Shown here: one piece after another, positions 7,286-15,651 of the stretch
Position numbering within the stretch: position 1 is the first letter of the stretch
Layout: every line of letters starts with the position of its first letter
NCBI GenBank assembly: GCA_943327315.2
Contig: CALPWQ020000011.1
Span: 1 to 38,132, forward strand
Reading direction: 5' to 3'
Length of the DNA: 38,132 nt
DNA from: Chitinophaga pinensis
Lineage (GTDB): Bacteria; Bacteroidota; Bacteroidia; Flavobacteriales_D; Crocinitomicaceae
Position numbers and translations under genes: made by a program
The notes under the pieces: model-generated
What the model was told of the DNA's origin: nothing
The model's input: the letters and a program-made list of their open reading frames with translations, nothing else
The model's database searches: none

Positions 7286-7305
7286 TATCTTATTTTTTAT
7301 TGCAC

Positions 7306-8640
7306 ATGGACTTCTGGATCAAAGCCGCACAACTCATTCTCTCTCTCTCAATTCTTGTTATTCTTCACGAATTCGGGCATTTTATTCCCGCACGACTTTT
7401 CAAAACGCGCGTCGAGAAATTTTACCTCTTTTTTAATCCTTGGTTTTCGCTTTTCAAGAAAAAAATAGGTGACACAGAATGGGGTATTGGATGGTTGCCG
7501 TTGGGTGGATATGTGAAGATTTCCGGCATGGTGGATGAGTCCATGGACAAAGAACAAATGGCTCAACCTGCCCAACCTTGGGAGTTTCGCTCGAAGCCAG
7601 CGTGGCAGCGTTTGATCATCATGATTGGTGGGGTAACAGTGAATTTACTTCTTGGAATTTTTATCTACATCTGTATCATGTTTGTTTACGGTGAGGAGCA
7701 GGTGCAGACGAAAGATTTGAAATCTGGATTGGCCATTCACCCGTATTTGGCAAAATATGACTTGCATTCAGGTGACAACATCTTGAAAGTTGAAGGCACT
7801 TCAGTAAAGCATTTCAACGACATCAACACCGATATCCTCCTCAATGAAGCGCATAAATTAACGGTGCAACATGCAGACGGTAAAATTGAAGAAATCACAC
7901 TTCCTGCTGGGATTGACTACAAGCTTTTCAAAGAAGGTGCTTTTCCAGCAACAGGATTGCGGCATAAATCAACCGTCGTTGATTCGGTAATGCCGAAGAC
8001 TCCTGCGATGAAAGCGGGACTGCAAAAAGGGGATCGCATTGTTTCGATCAATGGGACGGCCATTGAATTCTACGACCAGATTCAAAGCAGTTTGTATGAG
8101 GCCAAAGGTAAAAAAGCTTCGATTGTCATTCAACGCAAAGGCCTTGTGGACACGCTGATCAGCACTGTTCTTCCTGTCGGAACAATTGGATTTGCAGTGA
8201 AGAAAGAAAAATACTTCGACTTGAAAGCCATTCAAACCGTAAAATACAGCTTTGTGGAAAGCATCAGCCGTGGTACGGAACGCGGATTTAGTACCTTGAG
8301 CAATTATGTGGCGCAGATGAAGTTCGTCTTTACGGAAAAAGGTGCTTCGTCCATCGGTGGATTTGGCGCCATTGGGAATTTGTTCCCGCCAACGTGGGAC
8401 TGGCAAATCTTCTGGATGAATACCGCCTTGTTGTCCATTATTTTGGCCTTCATGAACATTTTACCGATCCCTGCGCTTGATGGTGGACACATTGTGTTCT
8501 TGCTGTACGAAATGATTACCGGTCGCGAGGCACCTCAAAAAGTATTGGAATATGCGCAATATGTTGGATTCATCTTGCTGATGGGCTTGCTGTTGTACGC
8601 GAATGGGAATGATTTGTACAGGTATTTTACTGGGGGGTAA
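7306..8640 (+). CDS. rseP: RIP metalloprotease RseP (site-2 protease)
   Basis: A 444-residue intramembrane zinc protease that cleaves anti-sigma factors and signal-peptide remnants in the inner membrane. Seen: HEFGH zinc motif at residues 21-25 in the first membrane helix, GYVKISGM after it, a membrane helix GVTVNLLLGIFIYICIM near residue 110, two PDZ-like regions (around residues 120-205, weaker, and 210-285, with MPKTPAMKAGLQKGDRIVSINGT), and the C-terminal NILPIPALDGGH motif whose Asp is the third zinc ligand. The frame could start at a TTG at 7300, but the ATG at 7306 (MDFWIKAAQ) is chosen. No obvious sigma/anti-sigma pair lies nearby. Confidence 0.96.
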   Translation: MDFWIKAAQLILSLSILVILHEFGHFIPARLFKTRVEKFYLFFNPWFSLFKKKIGDTEWGIGWLPLGGYVKISGMVDESMDKEQMAQPAQPWEFRSKPAWQRLIIMIGGVTVNLLLGIFIYICIMFVYGEEQVQTKDLKSGLAIHPYLAKYDLHSGDNILKVEGTSVKHFNDINTDILLNEAHKLTVQHADGKIEEITLPAGIDYKLFKEGAFPATGLRHKSTVVDSVMPKTPAMKAGLQKGDRIVSINGTAIEFYDQIQSSLYEAKGKKASIVIQRKGLVDTLISTVLPVGTIGFAVKKEKYFDLKAIQTVKYSFVESISRGTERGFSTLSNYVAQMKFVFTEKGASSIGGFGAIGNLFPPTWDWQIFWMNTALLSIILAFMNILPIPALDGGHIVFLLYEMITGREAPQKVLEYAQYVGFILLMGLLLYANGNDLYRYFTGG

Positions 8641-8641
8641 A

Positions 8642-8757
8642 AGAGTTACTAATTACGAGTTACGAATTACGAATTAGGTGGCTGAGGTACTCGAAGCCAC
8701 GAATTACTAATTACGAATTAGGTGGCTGAGGTACTCGAAGCCACGAGTTACTAATTA
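8642..8757. repeat. Two tandem 44-bp hairpin repeats with heptad-like flanks
   Basis: The core GTGGCTGAGGTACTCGAAGC plus CAC appears at 8678-8700 and again at 8722-8744, a 44-bp period. Each core can fold: GTGGCT pairs with AGCCAC and GAG with CTC. The cores are separated and flanked by units of ACGAATT, ACGAGTT and ACTAATT. The same flank units occur in the repeats at 9534 and 9838. Lies immediately after rseP and could serve as a transcription end or mRNA-stabilising structure. Confidence 0.75.
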
Positions 8758-8872: not shown

Positions 8873-9529
8873 ATGAAAAATCTACTTATCGCATTATTGA
8901 CATTAGTAACATTTTCTTTGAAGGCGCAGCTCACCGAAGGACACGTGGCGTATAAGATTGATTGTGTATCGGACAATCCGGACATGCAGATGGCAGTGAC
9001 TATGTTGCAAGGGTCGACCATGGAAATTTATTTCAACGAAGGACTCACACGTTCTGAAATGAAGATGGGTACGATGATGAACATCAGCACCTTGACCAAT
9101 GAAAAAACCGGTGATTTTCTGATGTTGATGAGCGGAATGGTGGGTAAAAATGCGATATTAACCACACTCGATGAGATCAACAAGGAAAAAGCAGAAACTC
9201 CTGAAATGGAGGTAACGCTTGTTGACGAAACAAAAACCATCATGGGGTATGTGTGCAAGAAAGCAATTATGACCTCTGAAGATGGCTCGGAGTCCGTGTT
9301 TTGGTACACCGAGGAAATTAAAGTTGCTTCAAAAGGTCAAAGTTATTTGAATGAAAAAGTCCCTGGTTTTCCTTTGGAATATGACATCAATAACGCTGGA
9401 TTTAAAATGGTCTTGACCGTTACAGAAATAGAGCAGAAAATTAAAAAAGCTGGAGATTTATTCGATTTTAAAATTCCTGAAGGTTACAAACAAATGACTT
9501 TGGAGCAGCTGAAGGGTATGGGAATGTGA
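8873..9529 (+). CDS. Secreted DUF4412-like protein
   Basis: A 218-residue protein with a signal peptide MKNLLIALLTLVTFSLKAQ and cleavage after KAQ. The mature sequence, with GHVAYKIDCVSDNPDMQMAV, STMEIYFNEGLTRSEMKMG, MGYVCKKAIMTSEDGSESVFW and EVTLVDETKTIMGY, resembles the DUF4412 family of periplasmic Bacteroidota proteins of unknown function. It is Met-rich (MKMGTMMN, MLMSGMVG), and ends MTLEQLKGMGM. The gene is bracketed on both sides by repeats, so its transcript probably begins or ends inside them. Family call is moderate; the secreted character is clear. Confidence 0.8.
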   Translation: MKNLLIALLTLVTFSLKAQLTEGHVAYKIDCVSDNPDMQMAVTMLQGSTMEIYFNEGLTRSEMKMGTMMNISTLTNEKTGDFLMLMSGMVGKNAILTTLDEINKEKAETPEMEVTLVDETKTIMGYVCKKAIMTSEDGSESVFWYTEEIKVASKGQSYLNEKVPGFPLEYDINNAGFKMVLTVTEIEQKIKKAGDLFDFKIPEGYKQMTLEQLKGMGM

Positions 9530-9530
9530 T

Positions 9531-9713
9531 TTAGTTACGAATGACGAGTTACGAATGACGAATGACGAATTACTAATGACGAGTTACCAATGACGAGTTA
9601 CGAATTATGAGACTGAGTTGCGCAGCCCTCGAAGTGAAAACCAAACAAATCGTAACTAGTAACTAGTAATTAGTAACTTTTTTAAAGTCTTTCAGCGAGG
9701 CGGTCTTTTGTCT
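9531..9713. repeat. Heptad palindromic repeat, complete copy
   Basis: Left arm 9534-9610 is eleven in-phase 7-bp units: GTTACGA, ATGACGA, ATTACTA and close variants. Core 9611-9649 reads GACTGAGTTGCGCAGCCCTC then GAAGTGAAAACCAAACAA. Right arm 9650-9677 is four 7-bp units (TCGTAAC, TAGTAAC, TAGTAAT, TAGTAAC), the reverse complement of left-arm units. Then follows AAAGTCTTTCAGCGAGGCGG and TCTTTTGTC to 9713. 9644-9713 matches 13985-14054 with about five differences. The whole could form a long imperfect hairpin. No coding potential. Confidence 0.8.
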
Positions 9714-9837
9714 TATAGCGCAGCGGCTTTTTCGCAGCGGAGGTGAGCGAACAAAACCTGAACATAATTCAAAATGACAAAAAATACACTGTGCAATTTA
9801 GATAAAACATAAACGTGGTTTTAGTCGGACAACAATG
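9714..9837. other. Intergenic stretch with degenerate repeat words
   Basis: Contains GCGCAGCGGCTTTTTCGCAG at about 9718-9737, where GCAGCGG recurs, then AT-rich sequence with no open frame or promoter that I can defend. It separates two copies of the heptad repeat. Confidence 0.4.
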
Positions 9838-9939
9838 ATGACGAATTACGAATGATGAATGACGAGTTACGAGTTACGAATTATGTGACTGAGTTGCGCA
9901 GCCCTCGAAGCGAAAACCCAATAACTCGTAACTAGAAAC
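9838..9939. repeat. Heptad palindromic repeat, second copy
   Basis: Left arm 9838-9886 has seven 7-bp units (ATGACGA, ATTACGA, ATGATGA, ATGACGA, GTTACGA, GTTACGA, ATTATGT). Core: GACTGAGTTGCGCAGCCCTC then GAAGCGAAAACCC, nearly identical to the copy at 9611. Right arm is short, ACTCGTAACTAGAAAC, ending about 9939. From there to 10030 the sequence is AT-rich with nothing I can name. Confidence 0.75.
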
Positions 9940-10030
9940 AATCAATCTTTAAAAATTCTAAAGGCGCATTGAATGAGTAATTAGTTCCTTTGGAGTTATG
10001 GGATTGTACAAAAAGCTAATTGATTTTAGG

Positions 10031-11200
10031 TTAATTTTTTTCAATTATTGGACTAATCACAAATTCATTTGGAGAGAAGCCTGTGCATTTTTTGAAAGCA
10101 ATAAAGAATGGGCTATATGATGAAAAACCAACATAAAAAGCCAAGGATTCAAGTGTGTTCGTTTTAAGATAACTTGCATGAATTAGTTGTTTTGCATCTT
10201 CAATTTTATGAATTGTTTTAAATTCAATAAAGCTTATTTTACAATGATACTTGAATAAGTAAACAACGTGGCTGACAGGAATTCCTAATTCATTAGCAAC
10301 GTCAGAAATTGTTATTTTTTGATTTCTAAAAAGTTTTTTTTCATTGGCAATAATTTCAATTTCTTCAATCAAATTTAGAGTTTTAGAACTTAATTTCTCC
10401 TTCAACCTAAGATCATTCTGATTACTAACTTTTGCGATGCTGTTATTCCAGAAATTATAAATGGCTTCGTTGTCATTTTCCAACTTTTTCAATTTCTCCT
10501 CTAATTTTGGCAAGCCATGAAGGATTTCTGGTGAAATAAGAATTTTACCAAAAACAATTAACCAAATTAAAGCTGGGATTATAGAAAAAGGATAACCATG
10601 AGCAATAGAGTTCGTTGAAAAATCGATAGTAAAAGAAATTATATTCCTAACTGTTAAAAGTATGGCTAGAACGAATAAAAAATTTGTCCAGTTTCTAATT
10701 AGTTTATATTTTTTTTCGTTGATCTTATGTTTTGATTGCCATAATTGAGTTCTAACCAATTGGAATATTTTTAACAAATACACTAATGAGAATACAATAA
10801 TGGCAGTATATTTTAATGTTAGAGGTAGAGCGAAAAAGTTCTCTGTAAATTGACTGTTTTTAAAAAAAGATAAAACAACTAAAAGAGGGAAAATAAAATG
10901 CAATACGTGTTTCCATTTGAACGATTTGCTATCGGTAACAATTGATTTAATATAAAAATAAAACAAGGGAATATTTATCAAAATAATCGCGTGATAGGGT
11001 TCTGGGATATCTTTCCCAAAAGTTTGCAATTTCATTTCATAGCTTCCAAGAAGCAACATCCTCAGACAAACAATTGAAAGAATCAAAAACAGGAAAATAT
11101 TTACCGATTTATTGGAACGAAAAGAAAAAGACAACAGAATCATCGTCATAAAACCAATTATTCCTGTTGTTATGTAAATACTGCTTTCTAAATAACTCAT
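10031..11200 (-). CDS. Membrane-anchored AraC family transcriptional regulator
   Basis: A 389-residue protein. Residues 1-225 hold about seven transmembrane helices (e.g. IYITTGIIGFMTMILLSF, NIFLFLILSIVCLRMLLL, AIILINIPLFYFYI, VLHFIFPLLVVLSF, IIPALIWLIVFGKILI). A charged linker follows (LEEKLKKLENDNEAIYNF). Residues about 290-385 are an AraC-type double helix-turn-helix: ITISDVANELGIPVSHVVYL and LESLAFYVGFSSYSPFFIAF, then KKCTGFSPNEFV. Membrane-bound AraC regulators are common in Bacteroidota. The gene is noticeably AT-rich, as are its two divergent neighbours, which it may control. ATG at 11198-11200. Confidence 0.88.
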   Translation of the reverse strand: MSYLESSIYITTGIIGFMTMILLSFSFRSNKSVNIFLFLILSIVCLRMLLLGSYEMKLQTFGKDIPEPYHAIILINIPLFYFYIKSIVTDSKSFKWKHVLHFIFPLLVVLSFFKNSQFTENFFALPLTLKYTAIIVFSLVYLLKIFQLVRTQLWQSKHKINEKKYKLIRNWTNFLFVLAILLTVRNIISFTIDFSTNSIAHGYPFSIIPALIWLIVFGKILISPEILHGLPKLEEKLKKLENDNEAIYNFWNNSIAKVSNQNDLRLKEKLSSKTLNLIEEIEIIANEKKLFRNQKITISDVANELGIPVSHVVYLFKYHCKISFIEFKTIHKIEDAKQLIHASYLKTNTLESLAFYVGFSSYSPFFIAFKKCTGFSPNEFVISPIIEKN

Positions 11201-11304
11201 TCAATCAATATGTAGCTTAGTAACGTTTTTTATTTCAAAAAATGAAAGCGATTTGTTTAGAAAAACCTAATTGCATTTTAATATTAGTCCACATAATTTA
11301 TTCG

Positions 11305-11312
11305 CAAATATA
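11305..11312 (-). promoter_or_regulatory. -7 box TATATTTG of the AraC regulator gene
   Basis: Perfect TAnnTTTG on the minus strand, 104 nt before the ATG at 11200. No clear -33 element. Confidence 0.35.
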
Positions 11313-11419
11313 CTTGTTGTTTTGCTGAAATGATTTTAAATGACTTGTTGAAAGGTTGAAATGTTTTGTTGAAATTGCAAATCCAATTTTTCGAATAAAG
11401 CAAAAAGAATACTGAATAA

Positions 11420-11427
11420 TATCTTTG
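11420..11427 (+). promoter_or_regulatory. -7 box TATCTTTG of the T9SS protein gene
   Basis: Perfect TAnnTTTG, 103 nt before the ATG at 11531. TTG words lie upstream but not at ideal spacing. Confidence 0.4.
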
Positions 11428-11530
11428 CGGACACCATTCTACTTTAATTATTGTGCTCAAAAATTAATTATTTATAAAGCCGAATCTATGGATACTCAAA
11501 TCACTATCAATCAAATCAGCATTCCTTCAT

Positions 11531-13033
11531 ATGTTTAATATAATTTACACTACGAAATTCAAATTTAATTGGAAATATTCTCTAGTTGTCATATGTTCTT
11601 TCACGTTGTTAAAAGCAAATGCTCAATTTTACATAAAAGGAATTTGCAGTGTTTCTGCTTCAGGTAGTATCTCTGTTTTTGAAAATAATTTTATTGCTGA
11701 GCCTACTGCTCAAATTATTAATGATGGTTCGATTCAAAACAAATGTGTTTCAACTTTCATGGGAGTTGGTGCAAGCTTTGCTGGATTAGGAATGTTAACT
11801 TTTTCTGCCGATGGTTTACAATCCATTGATGCAAACGGTGGAGCAATTGATTGTAACATAACGTTAAATAATGCAAGTGATTTATCGCTAACTACTTTGG
11901 CTTTGGGCTCAGCATTTAGTGTTACTAATAGTTTGTCTTTTGGCGGAAATTTTACTTTTCTTGCTGGAGATTTGATCACAAATTCAAGTGAAATTATATT
12001 TAAGGACCAAGCCACACATACGAGTTCTTCAAATGCGTCTCATATTAACGGATGGTGCTTTAAAAAAGGCAATGATCCCTTCGAATTTCCAGTTGGAGAT
12101 GGCATAAAATTACGTAAGGCTGCAATTTCAGCTCCTTCTTCCCTTACTGATGTCTACGCCTGTAAATATTTTAAGTCTAATCCTAATTTACAATATGACG
12201 TTGGATTGAAGGATCCTACTCTGTCTGTAATTTCGCTTTGTGAATATTGGCTACTGAATAGAATTACAGGAACATCTTCGGTTTCAATTTCTCTTTCTTG
12301 GGATAATTCCTATTCATGCGGCGTATCAAATCCATCCGAATTACTCATTGCGCGATGGAATGGAACGATGTGGAAAGATCATGGAAATGGAGGCACAACA
12401 GGAACACTGGCTGCTGGAACAATAGTTTCAGCAAGCACAATAAGTTCATTTAGCCCATTTACCTTAGCTTCAACAACTACAAATAATCCTTTACCTATAG
12501 AATTAATTTCATTTGATGCCAATTGTAATAATGCTGCTGTAGATGTGAAATGGTCTACAGCATCAGAACATAACAATTATTATTTTTCCGTTGAAAGGAG
12601 CTTGGATGGAGAGAGTTGGATAAATGTATTTATTTCTAATGGTGCTGGGAATTCAACCCAATTACTCAATTATTATTGGACAGATAATGAACCTTTTAGA
12701 CAAGAAAGATATTACCGTTTGAAACAAACTGATTTTGATGGTGCTACAAGTTATTCTAATATCGTTTTTGTTGATGGTTGTATTGGAAAAGAAAATGCCT
12801 TGCGAATTAGTCCAAATCCAGGAAATGAAAATGTTAATATCGATTTGATAAGTGAAGATATTATAGGTTTCCAAATTCTTGATTCAAAAGGAATAATTGT
12901 TTTATCAAAAACATTTATAGATCCTATTAGTTCTTTTTCAATTGATATAAACTCATTTAATTCAGGTGTTTACATTATTTTTCTCACCTCAAATTCCGGA
13001 AGTTTTACAGAAAAATTCGTCAAATTATTGTAA
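11531..13033 (+). CDS. T9SS-secreted protein with C-terminal sorting domain
   Basis: A 500-residue secreted protein. The signal peptide (residues 1-32) has a basic start, a hydrophobic core YSLVVICSFTLL and a cleavage site at ANAQ. Residues 33-320 are Ser/Thr/Asn-rich beta repeats with IINDGSI, FNVMLQS-like and LSFGGNFTFLAGDLITNSS segments, typical of surface adhesin-like proteins. NPLPIELISFDANC near residue 325 starts the module WSTASEHNNYYFSVERSLDG and YYRLKQTDFDGATSYSNIV, found just before T9SS tails. The end (about 425-500) is a type A sorting domain: ISPNPGNENVNIDL, GVYIIFL and FTEKFVKLL. The gene is AT-rich, followed 38 bp later by the DUF1566 gene and probably co-transcribed with it. 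The specific ligand is unknown. Confidence 0.85.
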   Translation: MFNIIYTTKFKFNWKYSLVVICSFTLLKANAQFYIKGICSVSASGSISVFENNFIAEPTAQIINDGSIQNKCVSTFMGVGASFAGLGMLTFSADGLQSIDANGGAIDCNITLNNASDLSLTTLALGSAFSVTNSLSFGGNFTFLAGDLITNSSEIIFKDQATHTSSSNASHINGWCFKKGNDPFEFPVGDGIKLRKAAISAPSSLTDVYACKYFKSNPNLQYDVGLKDPTLSVISLCEYWLLNRITGTSSVSISLSWDNSYSCGVSNPSELLIARWNGTMWKDHGNGGTTGTLAAGTIVSASTISSFSPFTLASTTTNNPLPIELISFDANCNNAAVDVKWSTASEHNNYYFSVERSLDGESWINVFISNGAGNSTQLLNYYWTDNEPFRQERYYRLKQTDFDGATSYSNIVFVDGCIGKENALRISPNPGNENVNIDLISEDIIGFQILDSKGIIVLSKTFIDPISSFSIDINSFNSGVYIIFLTSNSGSFTEKFVKLL

Positions 13034-13071
13034 TTAAAACACCCAAAAATTAATCTTAAAAAATCAAACTA

Positions 13072-13842
13072 ATGAAAAACAAATTGAATATTCTGTGCTT
13101 CGTTGCACTAAATTTTAGTGCTGTAAACGCAAATGCTCAAGTTGGAATTGGTACCTCAACTCCACATATATCCGCTGAACTAGATGTAACAAGTACAACC
13201 AAAGGTTTCTTGCCTCCGCGAATGACCGCTGCTCAAAGGGATGCAATAGTTTCTCCTACAGCTGGATTAATAGTATGGTGCACAAATTGCGGAACTAGCG
13301 GTGAAGCGCAAGTTTACAATGGTACACTATTTACGAATATGATTGGTGGCGCCGCTTCATTAGGAATTGGTCAAGCTTATCAAGGAGGCATATTAGCCTA
13401 TATTTTTGTAAGTGGAGACCCTGGTTATGTTGCTGGGCAAATACATGGTTTAATAGCAGCGCCGACGAATCAGGGCACATCCGTAGGATGGGGCTGTCAA
13501 GGAACTACTATTTCAGGTGCTGATGGAACCTTATTAGGAACGGGTAATCAAAACACTATCGATATTATGGCAGGTTGTGCTACAGCTGGTATCGCTGCTC
13601 GTTTGTGCGGGGATTTGGTTGTTGGTGTATACTCGGATTGGTATTTACCAAGTCTGAGTGAACTAAATAAATTGTATTTAAATAAGGTAGCGATTGGAAT
13701 GTCATTAAACATTATGTATTGGAGCTCAACTGAATACGCTGCTGGTGGGAACCATGCAATGAGAGAGAGTTTTGGTGATGGGAATCAGAATATTGGGGGT
13801 AAATCTGAAGTTTTCGGTGTCCGAGCAATTCGATCTTTCTAG
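13072..13842 (+). CDS. Secreted DUF1566 (Lcl-type) domain protein
   Basis: A 256-residue protein with a signal peptide ending in NANAQ. After it comes the Bacteroidota start motif VGIGTSTPHISAELDVTSTT and KGFLPPRMTAAQRDAI, common in surface and fibre-like proteins. The C-terminal half (residues about 110-256) fits DUF1566: GGILAYIF, YSDWYLPSLSELNKLYLNK, YWSSTEYAAGGNHAM and VFGVRAIRSF. This fold belongs to the formylglycine-enzyme/C-type-lectin-like group and is usually a binding domain. There is no T9SS tail. Lies 38 bp after the T9SS protein gene, sharing its low GC. The ligand is unknown. Confidence 0.85.
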   Translation: MKNKLNILCFVALNFSAVNANAQVGIGTSTPHISAELDVTSTTKGFLPPRMTAAQRDAIVSPTAGLIVWCTNCGTSGEAQVYNGTLFTNMIGGAASLGIGQAYQGGILAYIFVSGDPGYVAGQIHGLIAAPTNQGTSVGWGCQGTTISGADGTLLGTGNQNTIDIMAGCATAGIAARLCGDLVVGVYSDWYLPSLSELNKLYLNKVAIGMSLNIMYWSSTEYAAGGNHAMRESFGDGNQNIGGKSEVFGVRAIRSF

Positions 13843-13950
13843 ATTAAATTATTTTATTCTTTACTTGATGAATAAGGGGCTCTAATTGATTCAATTTGTG
13901 AGCTAAAAATTTCAGAATAACTTTCGGCTTTACACACTTTGTGCGAGACT

Positions 13951-14095
13951 ACCCTGAGCCTGCGCAGCCCTCGAAGTGAAAACCAAACAACTCGTAACTT
14001 GTAACTAGTAATTAGTAACTTCTTTAAAGTCTTTCAGCGAAGCGGTCTTTTGTCCTTCGAAGCTCAAAGAGCGAAGAAGTGTCTTTTGTCTTTTT
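13951..14095. repeat. Heptad repeat, right-half copy, with following module
   Basis: Core CCTGAGCCTGCGCAGCCCTC at 13953-13972, then GAAGTGAAAACCAAACAA and the right arm CTCGTAAC TTGTAAC TAGTAAT TAGTAAC. No left heptad arm is present. It continues as AAAGTCTTTCAGCGAAGCGG, TCTTTTGTC, and AGAGCGAAGAAGTGTCTTTT. Same orientation as 9531-9713. 13843-13950 just before is AT-rich, with a weak GCTC/GAGC hairpin at 13878-13903 but no T-run. Since it lies beyond the DUF1501 stop, its stem-loops may end that transcript. Confidence 0.7.
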
Positions 14096-15651
14096 CAATC
14101 TATTTTCGTCATCGAAATGGTTTCCTTGCCCGATTGCTTCATGACCGTAAGGAAATATTGCCCCGATTTCAATCCGTCCAATTCAAAAGGAATGTGGTGC
14201 ACACCCTGGGCGAGATTGCTGTCATACACCTGCTTGATTGGTCGACCATTGATGTCTGAAAGCTCTATTTTTACCCATTCACTTTGGCACTTGAATCGAA
14301 CCGTAGCATTGTTCATCGCAGGATTCGGATAGACAATGCCTTTATCACGTTCATCCACCAATTCATCTAGTCCAACATTGCAAGCTCCTAAAACTTGATA
14401 ATACGTGATTGTCTGCTCAAAAAGTGGTTGAATTTCAGATTCTGGCACTTCAAACCAATCTTTCAAAATGGAGGCATAGACATCCCTAAAATCAATTTGC
14501 ATGGGAACGGCATCTTGGGCATTCACCGCATTCGAGATGACTGGATTTGAACCGATGATGCCTGAGTTAATGCACGACCCAAAGAGGAACATCGGTGCTG
14601 CATCGCCGTGATCGGTCCCAAAACTTGCATTTGAGGCAATCTGTCGGCCAAACTCAGAGAAGGTAAATCCAGCGACACGATTGGAAATCCCAAGCAAACC
14701 AAGGTCATTTTGGAAAGCGCTTACTGCATCTGAAAGTCGTTTCAATAAATCTGCATGATTTCCTGTGACTGGACTGGTGGAGGAAACTTGAGAATCATGG
14801 GTATCGAATCCATCGATATTGAGGATATACACCTTTGTTTTCAAGCCACCCGAAATCATTTTTGCCACATTGCGCAACTGCATGGCTAACGGATTATTGA
14901 CATCATATAGTGTTGATAAGGACGAGCCTGCATTCGCTGCAGCGTTAATGGTATCCGCGTATTGATTCGTTTGATTGATCAAAATGGAAAGGTATTCCAT
15001 GTGAGAACCGTAATAGCTGCCATCGTTTGTCGTGCCCGTATTGACCAAATTGACTGCTGCAAAAGGGTCACTTACGGCATGCGAAAAATTCGCCATTAAA
15101 CCCTGACATGTCGAAGACACCTCATAACCCATGCTGATCGCAAAAGGATCTGGGTTTGTCGAATTTGGATATCCATCTGGATAATTGGGATATACGCCCT
15201 CGAAATAGCGACCTAACCAACCACGTGTTTCAGCCACATCCATCATTCCCGTTGACCAGATGTCCATGGATCGAAAATGCGAACGATTCTGTTCGGGGTA
15301 TCCCACATTCTGAATGATGGTCAAGGTACCTTCATTGAACATTGTATTCATGCCGGTCATGACGGGATGAAAGCCTAGCTCGGGTGTTACTTGAATGATG
15401 TTTGGTTGAGGGATTAGGACATTGGGGCGTTGAAGGAGCAAATTCTCATATTGGTCGAGAGGAATCACCGTATTTAATCCATCATTTCCCCCATTCAAGC
15501 GAATGATGACCAATACACGGTCCTCGGCTGACTTTGAATAATTGAATAACTTCTTGGCGATACCTTGATAATTCATGCCATTTAAGGCAAATGGAGCCGC
15601 AACGGACGCCATGGTCATGTTCTTTAAAAAATTTCTTCTTTTCATACTCAT
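14095..15651 (-). CDS. DUF1501 domain protein with Tat-like signal and T9SS tail
   Basis: A 518-residue protein. The N terminus MSMKRRNFLKNMTMASVAAP is a twin-arginine signal (RRNFLK). DUF1501 proteins resemble sulfatase/alkaline-phosphatase folds; seen are VLVIIRLNGGNDGLNTVIPL, MDIWSTGMMDVAETRGWLGR, VYILNIDGFDTHDSQVS and FTFSEFGRQIASNASFGTDH. The enzymatic activity is unproven. Residues about 440-518 are a T9SS type A sorting domain: GIVYPNPAMNNATVRF, GRPIKQVYDSN, LKSGQYFLTVM and ETISMTKID. It follows the DUF1800 gene by 5 bp, a standard pairing. ATG at 15649-15651 is taken; ATG 6 bp later (MKRRNF) is equally good. Confidence 0.9.
   Translation of the reverse strand: MSMKRRNFLKNMTMASVAAPFALNGMNYQGIAKKLFNYSKSAEDRVLVIIRLNGGNDGLNTVIPLDQYENLLLQRPNVLIPQPNIIQVTPELGFHPVMTGMNTMFNEGTLTIIQNVGYPEQNRSHFRSMDIWSTGMMDVAETRGWLGRYFEGVYPNYPDGYPNSTNPDPFAISMGYEVSSTCQGLMANFSHAVSDPFAAVNLVNTGTTNDGSYYGSHMEYLSILINQTNQYADTINAAANAGSSLSTLYDVNNPLAMQLRNVAKMISGGLKTKVYILNIDGFDTHDSQVSSTSPVTGNHADLLKRLSDAVSAFQNDLGLLGISNRVAGFTFSEFGRQIASNASFGTDHGDAAPMFLFGSCINSGIIGSNPVISNAVNAQDAVPMQIDFRDVYASILKDWFEVPESEIQPLFEQTITYYQVLGACNVGLDELVDERDKGIVYPNPAMNNATVRFKCQSEWVKIELSDINGRPIKQVYDSNLAQGVHHIPFELDGLKSGQYFLTVMKQSGKETISMTKID

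Follow-up and report, generated by a model that had tools for sequence, protein, structure and literature searches.

Behind a GLPGLI-like gene in the stretch of DNA analysed here lies a run of 7-bp units, a short core and a run of the same units in reverse complement, and the locus raises the question of whether such a palindrome is one element or a meeting of several repeats. The window is this whole stretch, a complete contig of 38,132 bases (C11) from a genome of 3.04 Mb in 178 contigs, 97% complete, which is called G000 below. A preliminary description took the palindrome for a non-autonomous element whose heptad arms expand while its core stays fixed. What the analysis finds is a real, clade-restricted mosaic of heptads, sense-biased behind stop codons, and a REP-like hairpin; on balance, the palindrome in the window is probably a pair of facing clade-specific 7-bp arrays around a decayed hairpin core and not one palindromic transposon.

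The features of the locus are collected in Table 1. All the parts first described are present: the eleven heptads, core and four reverse heptads, the half copy near 13.9 kb and the 44-bp units near 8.7 kb (8655–8757, within the array behind the RseP-type gene). A second copy exists as well, its distance of 230 bp being approximate, with 276 bp from core start to core start. Nine of the left-arm units are strict RTKACKA and the other two are GTTACCA and ATTATGA. By eye, the outer stem is missing from the core in the window, which does retain CTGAG...CTCGAAG. The second and third core copies bound a stretch of about 4 kb, and 13961–14054 is 96% identical to 9619–9712. The GLPGLI-like gene has matches in 13 of the 16 genus members searched, and in the relative G010 its convergent partner is the DUF1501 gene (G010 sequence, compared by eye only). 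A terminator scan found none in the window at the site behind the GLPGLI-like gene, and the sole Rfam match, to sR5 inside this gene, scored 25.5, below the gathering score of 40.

Table 1. Features of the palindrome locus and its surroundings, in window coordinates.
Feature	Position	Strand	Evidence and remarks
RseP-type site-2 protease gene	7300..8640	+	ORF; TIGR00054 222 bits (cut-off 147.6); stop codon precedes first heptad island
Heptad array with two direct short-hairpin copies (8677-8700, 8721-8744)	8646..8757	+	
GLPGLI-like gene, directly upstream of palindrome	8873..9529	+	TIGR01200 36.5 bits (below cut-off 50); PF22252 33.9 bits (above its cut-off)
Left arm, 11 in-phase heptads	9534..9610	+	Starts 4 bp past GLPGLI-like stop codon
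Core CTGAGTTGCGCAGCCCTCGAAG	9613..9634	+	Resembles degenerate REP-like hairpin CTGAG-N10-CTCGAAG
Right arm, four reverse heptads	9650..9677	-	
Second copy: heptads, core (9889-9910), right arm of about two units	9838..9935	+	
Stretch of mostly low GC content (26-44% per 500 bp) encoding an AraC-type regulator, a T9SS-tail protein and an Lcl_C-like protein (score below cut-off)	9936..13953		
Half copy: core (13954-13976), reverse heptads (13992-14019), then following module	13954..14054		
T9SS-tail DUF1501 gene	14095..15651	-	Pfam

A genome search with 17 bases of the core, TTGCGCAGCCCTCGAAG, allowing up to two mismatches, returned three matches (two exact, one with one mismatch; control 0), all of them in the window. 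The core was therefore rejected as a dispersed family. The heptads are not bound to the window: the triple RTKACKARTKACKARTKAC matches 442 times across the 3.04 Mb (236 + 206; reversed control 0 + 0). An assembly artefact is unlikely because the composite of hairpin and heptads, CTCGAAGCCACGARTTACGARTT, occurs in four other MAGs: a search of 84,980 species, a set in which G000 itself may not be represented, located it in 32 stretches, and the four assemblies concerned bear the titles Flavobacteriales, Flavobacteriia, Cryomorphaceae and Chitinophaga pinensis. Some of the sampled contigs end near heptad or hairpin repeats, so that copy numbers in these MAGs may be lower bounds.

The units follow the consensus RTKACKA and are arranged head to tail at many intergenic sites, as in tandem heptamer repeats. 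Middle units between two strict units were themselves strict in 235 of 273 cases, and variation is mostly A/G at position 1, T/G at position 3 and G/T at position 6, positions favoured by this test in that the flanks could vary at those three only. Changes at these positions convert the triplets KAR and TKA between stop codons and their single-base neighbours; 116 of the 235 strict units, about half, are free of stop codons. The unit length was also assessed independently of any consensus, as the bases per kb that lie inside 18-of-21 repeats. In G000 this measure was 13.5 for period 7, 11.3 for period 14 and 0.9 for period 8, with 0.0 at periods 3–6, 9–11 and 13 and at most 1.5 at 12 and 15–20. 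Stretches of G010, G015 and G024, mostly chosen by their hairpins, gave a profile of the same shape. In 118 kb from control relatives the values were 0.0 at periods 4–20 and 0.6 at period 3, these stretches having been chosen by genes and those of the G000 clade for heptads or hairpins; 92 kb of distant loci encoding Y1 transposases gave 1.4 at periods 7, 11 and 14. A unit size of seven is common to several different heptad sequences. Other repeat words, such as octads AAGAYDTY and heptads GGACAAA, were seen at five sampled loci, often beside the dispersed hairpin.

This hairpin, GGTGGCTGAG...CTCGAAGCCAC, is REP-like and bulged, and the core in the window resembles it. The likeness to TGAG...TCGAAG palindromes remarked on earlier is borne out by a TGAG...TCGAAG hairpin that forms, together with heptads in register, a dispersed family. 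In 117 copies read from four genomes, the left flank is most often GARTTT or GARTTA (44 of 117) and the right flank GARTTAC (53 of 117). The register relative to the heptads is preferred on both sides: where heptads are present on the left (80 copies), the last one stops four bases short of the hairpin in 48, and where they are present on the right (71 copies), the first begins two bases past it in 63, with 37 of the 117 hairpins lacking a consensus heptad on the left and 46 on the right. The commonest short forms fold into a stem GTGGCT/AGCCAC, a GA bulge, GAG/CTC and a variable loop or inner stem; the short form measures 24–35 nt, and a longer form exists too. A loop swap from TGC...GCA to TTCC...GGAA in 12 of the 117 copies keeps pairing and is the only such case, and the RNAalifold consensus of the hairpin contains no compensatory pair. 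Invariance of the outer stem proves nothing because it was fixed by the search pattern. An extragenic hairpin of 20–40 bp in high copy number (up to 88 copies of the pattern) is what is expected of a REP; the REP tag GTAG or CGTC at one end was not seen among the 117 copies. According to a script classification, heptad words run in the same direction on both sides of 45 of the 117 hairpins, which speaks against one element with palindromic arms.

Position and orientation relative to genes are biased. The 102 stretches surveyed, from four genomes, contain 115 arrays of 18 nt or more, two of them inside called ORFs. Fifty-seven arrays are flanked by called genes on both sides and come within 60 bp of a gene end; 50 of them lie in sense orientation behind a stop codon, gene ends being those of a simple ORF caller in stretches selected for heptads or hairpins, in which orthologous islands are not independent. 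A second script, applied to G000 alone with arrays of at least 24 nt, a slightly looser unit and heptad-made ORFs dropped, gave 57 arrays, 27 of which are within 60 bp of a gene. Of these, 23 are sense behind a stop (18 start no more than 10 bp past it), four are at 5' ends and none is antisense at a 3' end. Both orientations occur together in nine of 74 islands; eight of these point inward (+-) and one is +-+, and six lie between convergent genes, one between co-directional genes and two at stretch ends. The polarity is not strict, since the 29 islands between co-directional genes comprise 19 with sense arrays only, nine with reversed arrays only and one with both, and five islands lie between divergent genes.

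The repeats are restricted to one clade. Among 79 genomes, G000 included, the heptad triple occurs 442 times in G000, 254 in G024, 220 in G004, 217 in G010 and 110 in G015, and at most 31 times in each of the other 74. The genus, with these five repeat-rich genomes and 21 members that have no more than ten triples each, is a natural experiment. Copies of the hairpin, counted with the pattern TGAGGN{2,25}TCGAAGCCAC, number 88 in G000, 39 in G024, 24 in G004, 25 in G010 and 31 in G015; elsewhere among the 79 genomes there are one to four in six and none in 68.

Comparison of orthologous sites shows that arrays, hairpin and core can be present separately. Behind the RseP gene, G000 has heptads and two hairpins, G010 has heptads and one hairpin, G004 has heptads without a hairpin (in the 160 bases to the contig end) and G024 has heptads without a match to the hairpin pattern; by eye, the other genus members printed have no heptads in the first 420 bases. 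At the site of the palindrome itself, behind the GLPGLI-like gene, G010 carries two kinds of heptad and then reverse heptads, with no core between them, and the array of G024 runs into foreign-looking sequence, which resembles the start of an insertion sequence. At the same place a hairpin with a T-run was seen by eye in six of the eight other relatives printed (G002, G005, G008, G011, G021 and G023), and a scan of G021, the only relative scanned, identified a terminator-like site. In G013 and G018 inspection by eye shows no heptads and no terminator there, and the neighbouring sequence is a different one. The arms without a core in G010 and the heptads without a hairpin behind RseP in G004 do not agree with a single element.

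Similar heptads occur far outside the clade. A heptad triple is present in 26 of 247 Bacteroidota genomes, and, apart from G000, at least 50 triples are found only in G212 (183, reversed control 12), G189 (116), G177 (91) and G197 (74), with GTGACRA units common in these distant heptad-rich genomes. Some GTGACRA arrays in their stretches begin at or just past stop codons, and one array has inverted arms. The polarity is weak: of 21 arrays in 18 stretches, ten are sense behind a stop, two antisense, one at a 5' end, seven inside ORFs and one far from genes, and in six of the ten sense cases the called ORF terminates within the array, which itself supplies stop codons. Four cyanobacterial plasmids also match the heptads; in a Dolichospermum plasmid (NZ_CP051207.1) the arrays lie inside an annotated DNA methyltransferase gene.

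These observations are best accommodated by a two-repeat mosaic. A process particular to the clade would make and renew 7-bp tandem repeats, many of which would start a few bases past stop codons and read with the gene, and the arrays would lengthen and shorten in 7-bp steps, most simply, we infer, by slippage during replication or repair. Where genes converge, two arrays would come to face each other and so look like the arms of a palindrome. The REP-like hairpin with its two-base GA bulge would be embedded in many arrays, at a favoured position within the heptad, and may have multiplied together with its heptad flanks, in the manner of REP/BIME units. The palindrome in the window would then consist of two facing arrays around a hairpin core that has decayed, and would afterwards have been duplicated and interrupted by some 4 kb of other DNA. 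That its arms are two facing arrays is argued by the islands of mixed orientation, which mostly point inward and in the majority lie between convergent genes. Slippage alone leaves unexplained both the sense bias and the presence of a nearly identical heptad in distant Bacteroidota families and cyanobacterial plasmids. A single unit length, the tie to stop codons and the mostly gene-wise orientation are likewise unexpected from plain slippage.

The alternative that survives best, though an unlikely one, is that a single-copy Y1 (HuH) transposase mobilises the hairpin and its heptad flanks in trans, as a REP, the whole forming a REPtron of TnpA_Y1 subclass 1.2. The preliminary description had proposed looking for such a transposase, and the stop codon of the only Y1 transposase gene in the genome is indeed followed directly by the hairpin and heptads. 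The Y1_Tnp gene of G000 encodes 144 residues with the motifs DHVH, VWQ and YIYCQKKHH; G010, G015 and G024 have one match each, and the locus is the same in all four genomes. The protein shows the features of subclass 1.2 (Y---Q--HH, HuH, WQ, length and low copy number) and scores 76.6 bits with the IS200 model NF033573 (cut-off 55), but its 31.9 bits with NF047646 (REP_Tyr_transpos) fall below the cut-off of 80. Hairpin and heptads follow the Y1 stop codon in G000 and G024, heptads alone in G015 and different heptads (AATTAAG) in G010, and the dispersed hairpin is absent from the Y1 locus of the last two; as a rough estimate, moreover, about 2% of genes would have this dispersed hairpin behind them by chance. 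The gene neighbouring Y1 is present in 13 of 16 genomes (G004, G013 and G018 are without it), and within the fetched 1.5 kb around it a Y1 gene with the motif was found in four of four heptad-rich genomes and in none of nine other relatives; the absence of Y1 from G004 is uninformative because the neighbouring gene is missing there too. In a tree of 24 Y1 rows, built from relatives' sequences only, the rows from the four heptad-rich genomes form one clade (support 97/97).

Hairpins are often found beside Y1 genes with the Y---Q--HH motif. The flanks of 24 Y1 loci, those of 30 in which the script recognised the Y motif, contain 68 stems of at least 6 bp compared with 8.2 expected from shuffles, and 14 of the 24 exceed all 20 of their shuffles, an excess that was measured against shuffles as the only control and not against other intergenic regions, so that terminators would count as hairpins too. 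For one hairpin, eight of ten genomic copies in G005 and three of three in G023 lie at the Y1 gene; the clustering is weaker in G021 (one of three) and absent in G007 (none of two). Hairpins seen at such loci include GTCCC..GGGAC, AACCCTGAAGGGGTT, GAATCCGGAGGATTC and others. Another, TCCCCCTCGTTGAGGGGGA, is present at the Y1 locus in G010, G015 and G024, is absent in G000 and occurs nowhere else in the sampled stretches; it looks like a local repeat belonging to the Y1 locus itself, which weakens the case for mobilisation in trans. By way of background, and given no weight here, IS608 inserts behind TTAC. The Y1 protein is a candidate mobiliser only. A role as general heptad maker is not supported, since the Y1 loci fetched from distant heptad-rich genomes hold no heptads; the best Y1 matches in those genomes are weak in G212 (27.6 bits) and G177 (43.0 bits) and strong in G189 (85.4 bits) and G197 (90.7 bits). 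Among 30 Y1 loci fetched from 16 genomes, a set that covers about half of the listed Y1 matches, the heptads matched at a single locus, once, in G240.

It is rather improbable that the arrays are maintained at the RNA level, with sense arrays in 3' untranslated regions binding an RNA-binding protein or replacing terminators and selection keeping their orientation and consensus. The sense bias behind stop codons and the confinement of unit variation mainly to three positions that toggle stop codons in KAR and TKA would be expected in this case, although the middle-unit test let flanks vary at those same positions only, about half of the strict units hold no stop codon and different heptad sequences can occupy the same place. 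The reversed-only islands among co-directional genes also speak against it. A terminator-like site is present in G021 at the orthologous place at which the window has none, and across gene ends such sites were found at one of 65 with heptads and ten of 100 without (p 0.05). This difference is marginal, and at convergent ends the counts are one of 40 and two of 46; heptads as replacement terminators were not retained.

A broader proposal, which we regard as quite improbable, is that a genome-wide system adds or keeps units of exactly 7 nt behind stop codons, mostly in sense orientation. It would have arisen or spread several times, in this Flavobacteriales clade, in at least two other Bacteroidota families and in cyanobacteria, and the consensus RTKACNA would be almost identical each time, its three variable positions acting as on/off switches for stop codons. 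If this were true, the system would require either an enzyme dedicated to copying the unit or something that reads a 7-nt code at the RNA level.

There is very little probability that the islands mainly serve as portable homology, with recombination between hairpin or heptad copies moving or inserting gene cassettes: the mostly low-GC 4-kb stretch between copies of the core and following arm, which was not seen behind the orthologous GLPGLI-like gene in G010, would fit such a role, but it is one case and could be an ordinary insertion into a repeat-rich spacer. Least probable of all, and rejected as the main reading, is a single non-autonomous mobile element with expanding arms and a fixed core, since the two copies with the same order of left arm, core and right arm and the half copy at 13.95 kb are matched by no core outside the window, and the arms exist without a core and tend to follow the orientation of neighbouring genes, as at the islands flanked by convergent genes; what stands of the palindromic-element reading is the dispersed heptad and hairpin family.

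The two-repeat mosaic can be set beside several known systems. Tandem heptanucleotides are termed STRR. They are described in Calothrix (PMC4692102), and passages of PMC4679880 report intergenic TAACTGA heptamers from Beggiatoaceae, Cyanobacteria and some Bacteroidetes, the majority of those in the BOGUAY genome lying just before start codons, and differences between two Cyanothece strains that are mostly in 7-nt steps. The heptads of the G000 clade are like the TAACTGA repeats described there in being 7-bp tandem units at many intergenic sites per genome, in a class that spans Cyanobacteria and Bacteroidetes, and unlike them in their clade sequence RTKACKA, in lying mostly behind stops (23 of the 27 near-gene arrays in G000, with four at 5' ends) and in being mixed with a repeated hairpin. 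The earlier statement that no description of such repeats was known accordingly holds for the RTKACKA form, which was not found in open-access papers on heptamer repeats or by its spelled strings, and not for intergenic heptamers as a class; spellings of TGAG...TCGAAG and of the heptads and their peptides matched no open-access papers either.

Elements of the REP/BIME/REPIN type, with their RAYT (TnpA_REP) transposases, offer the second comparison (PMC3733652, PMC8266576). As far as these accounts go, the clade hairpin agrees with REP/BIME sequences in being short and extragenic, in tens of copies, with a bulged irregular stem as in E. coli REPs and in tandem and mosaic clusters, and departs from them in having no GTAG/CGTC tag, in being often embedded in heptads at a preferred register and in a transposase link that is candidate only. 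TnpA_Y1 subclass 1.2 is characterised in PMC6006769 by DH[VI]H, WQ, Y---Q--HH, about 148 residues, low copy number and occurrence in Bacteroidetes and Cyanobacteria, and the Y1 protein of G000 shares these motifs, the size class and the low copy number, as matched to the published motif description. The REP entry for this subclass in Table 1 of that paper is 'no'; unlike this entry, 14 of the 24 loci with the Y motif exceed every shuffle in flanking hairpins, suggesting that genes with the subclass 1.2 Y motif often do have hairpins alongside. The present locus would be a first candidate context for a subclass for which that Table names no REP. The tandem repeats of archaeal Borgs, with perfect units of 18, 20 and 21 nt in the examples given in PMC9879509, are similarly fast-changing, confined to some genomes and in many cases intergenic, and the heptads of the window's clade differ from them in having one unit length, in being imperfect and in lying on a bacterial chromosome. 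The kinds of repeat are already known, as heptamer repeats and REP mosaics, and the form found in the window's clade is a variant of them.
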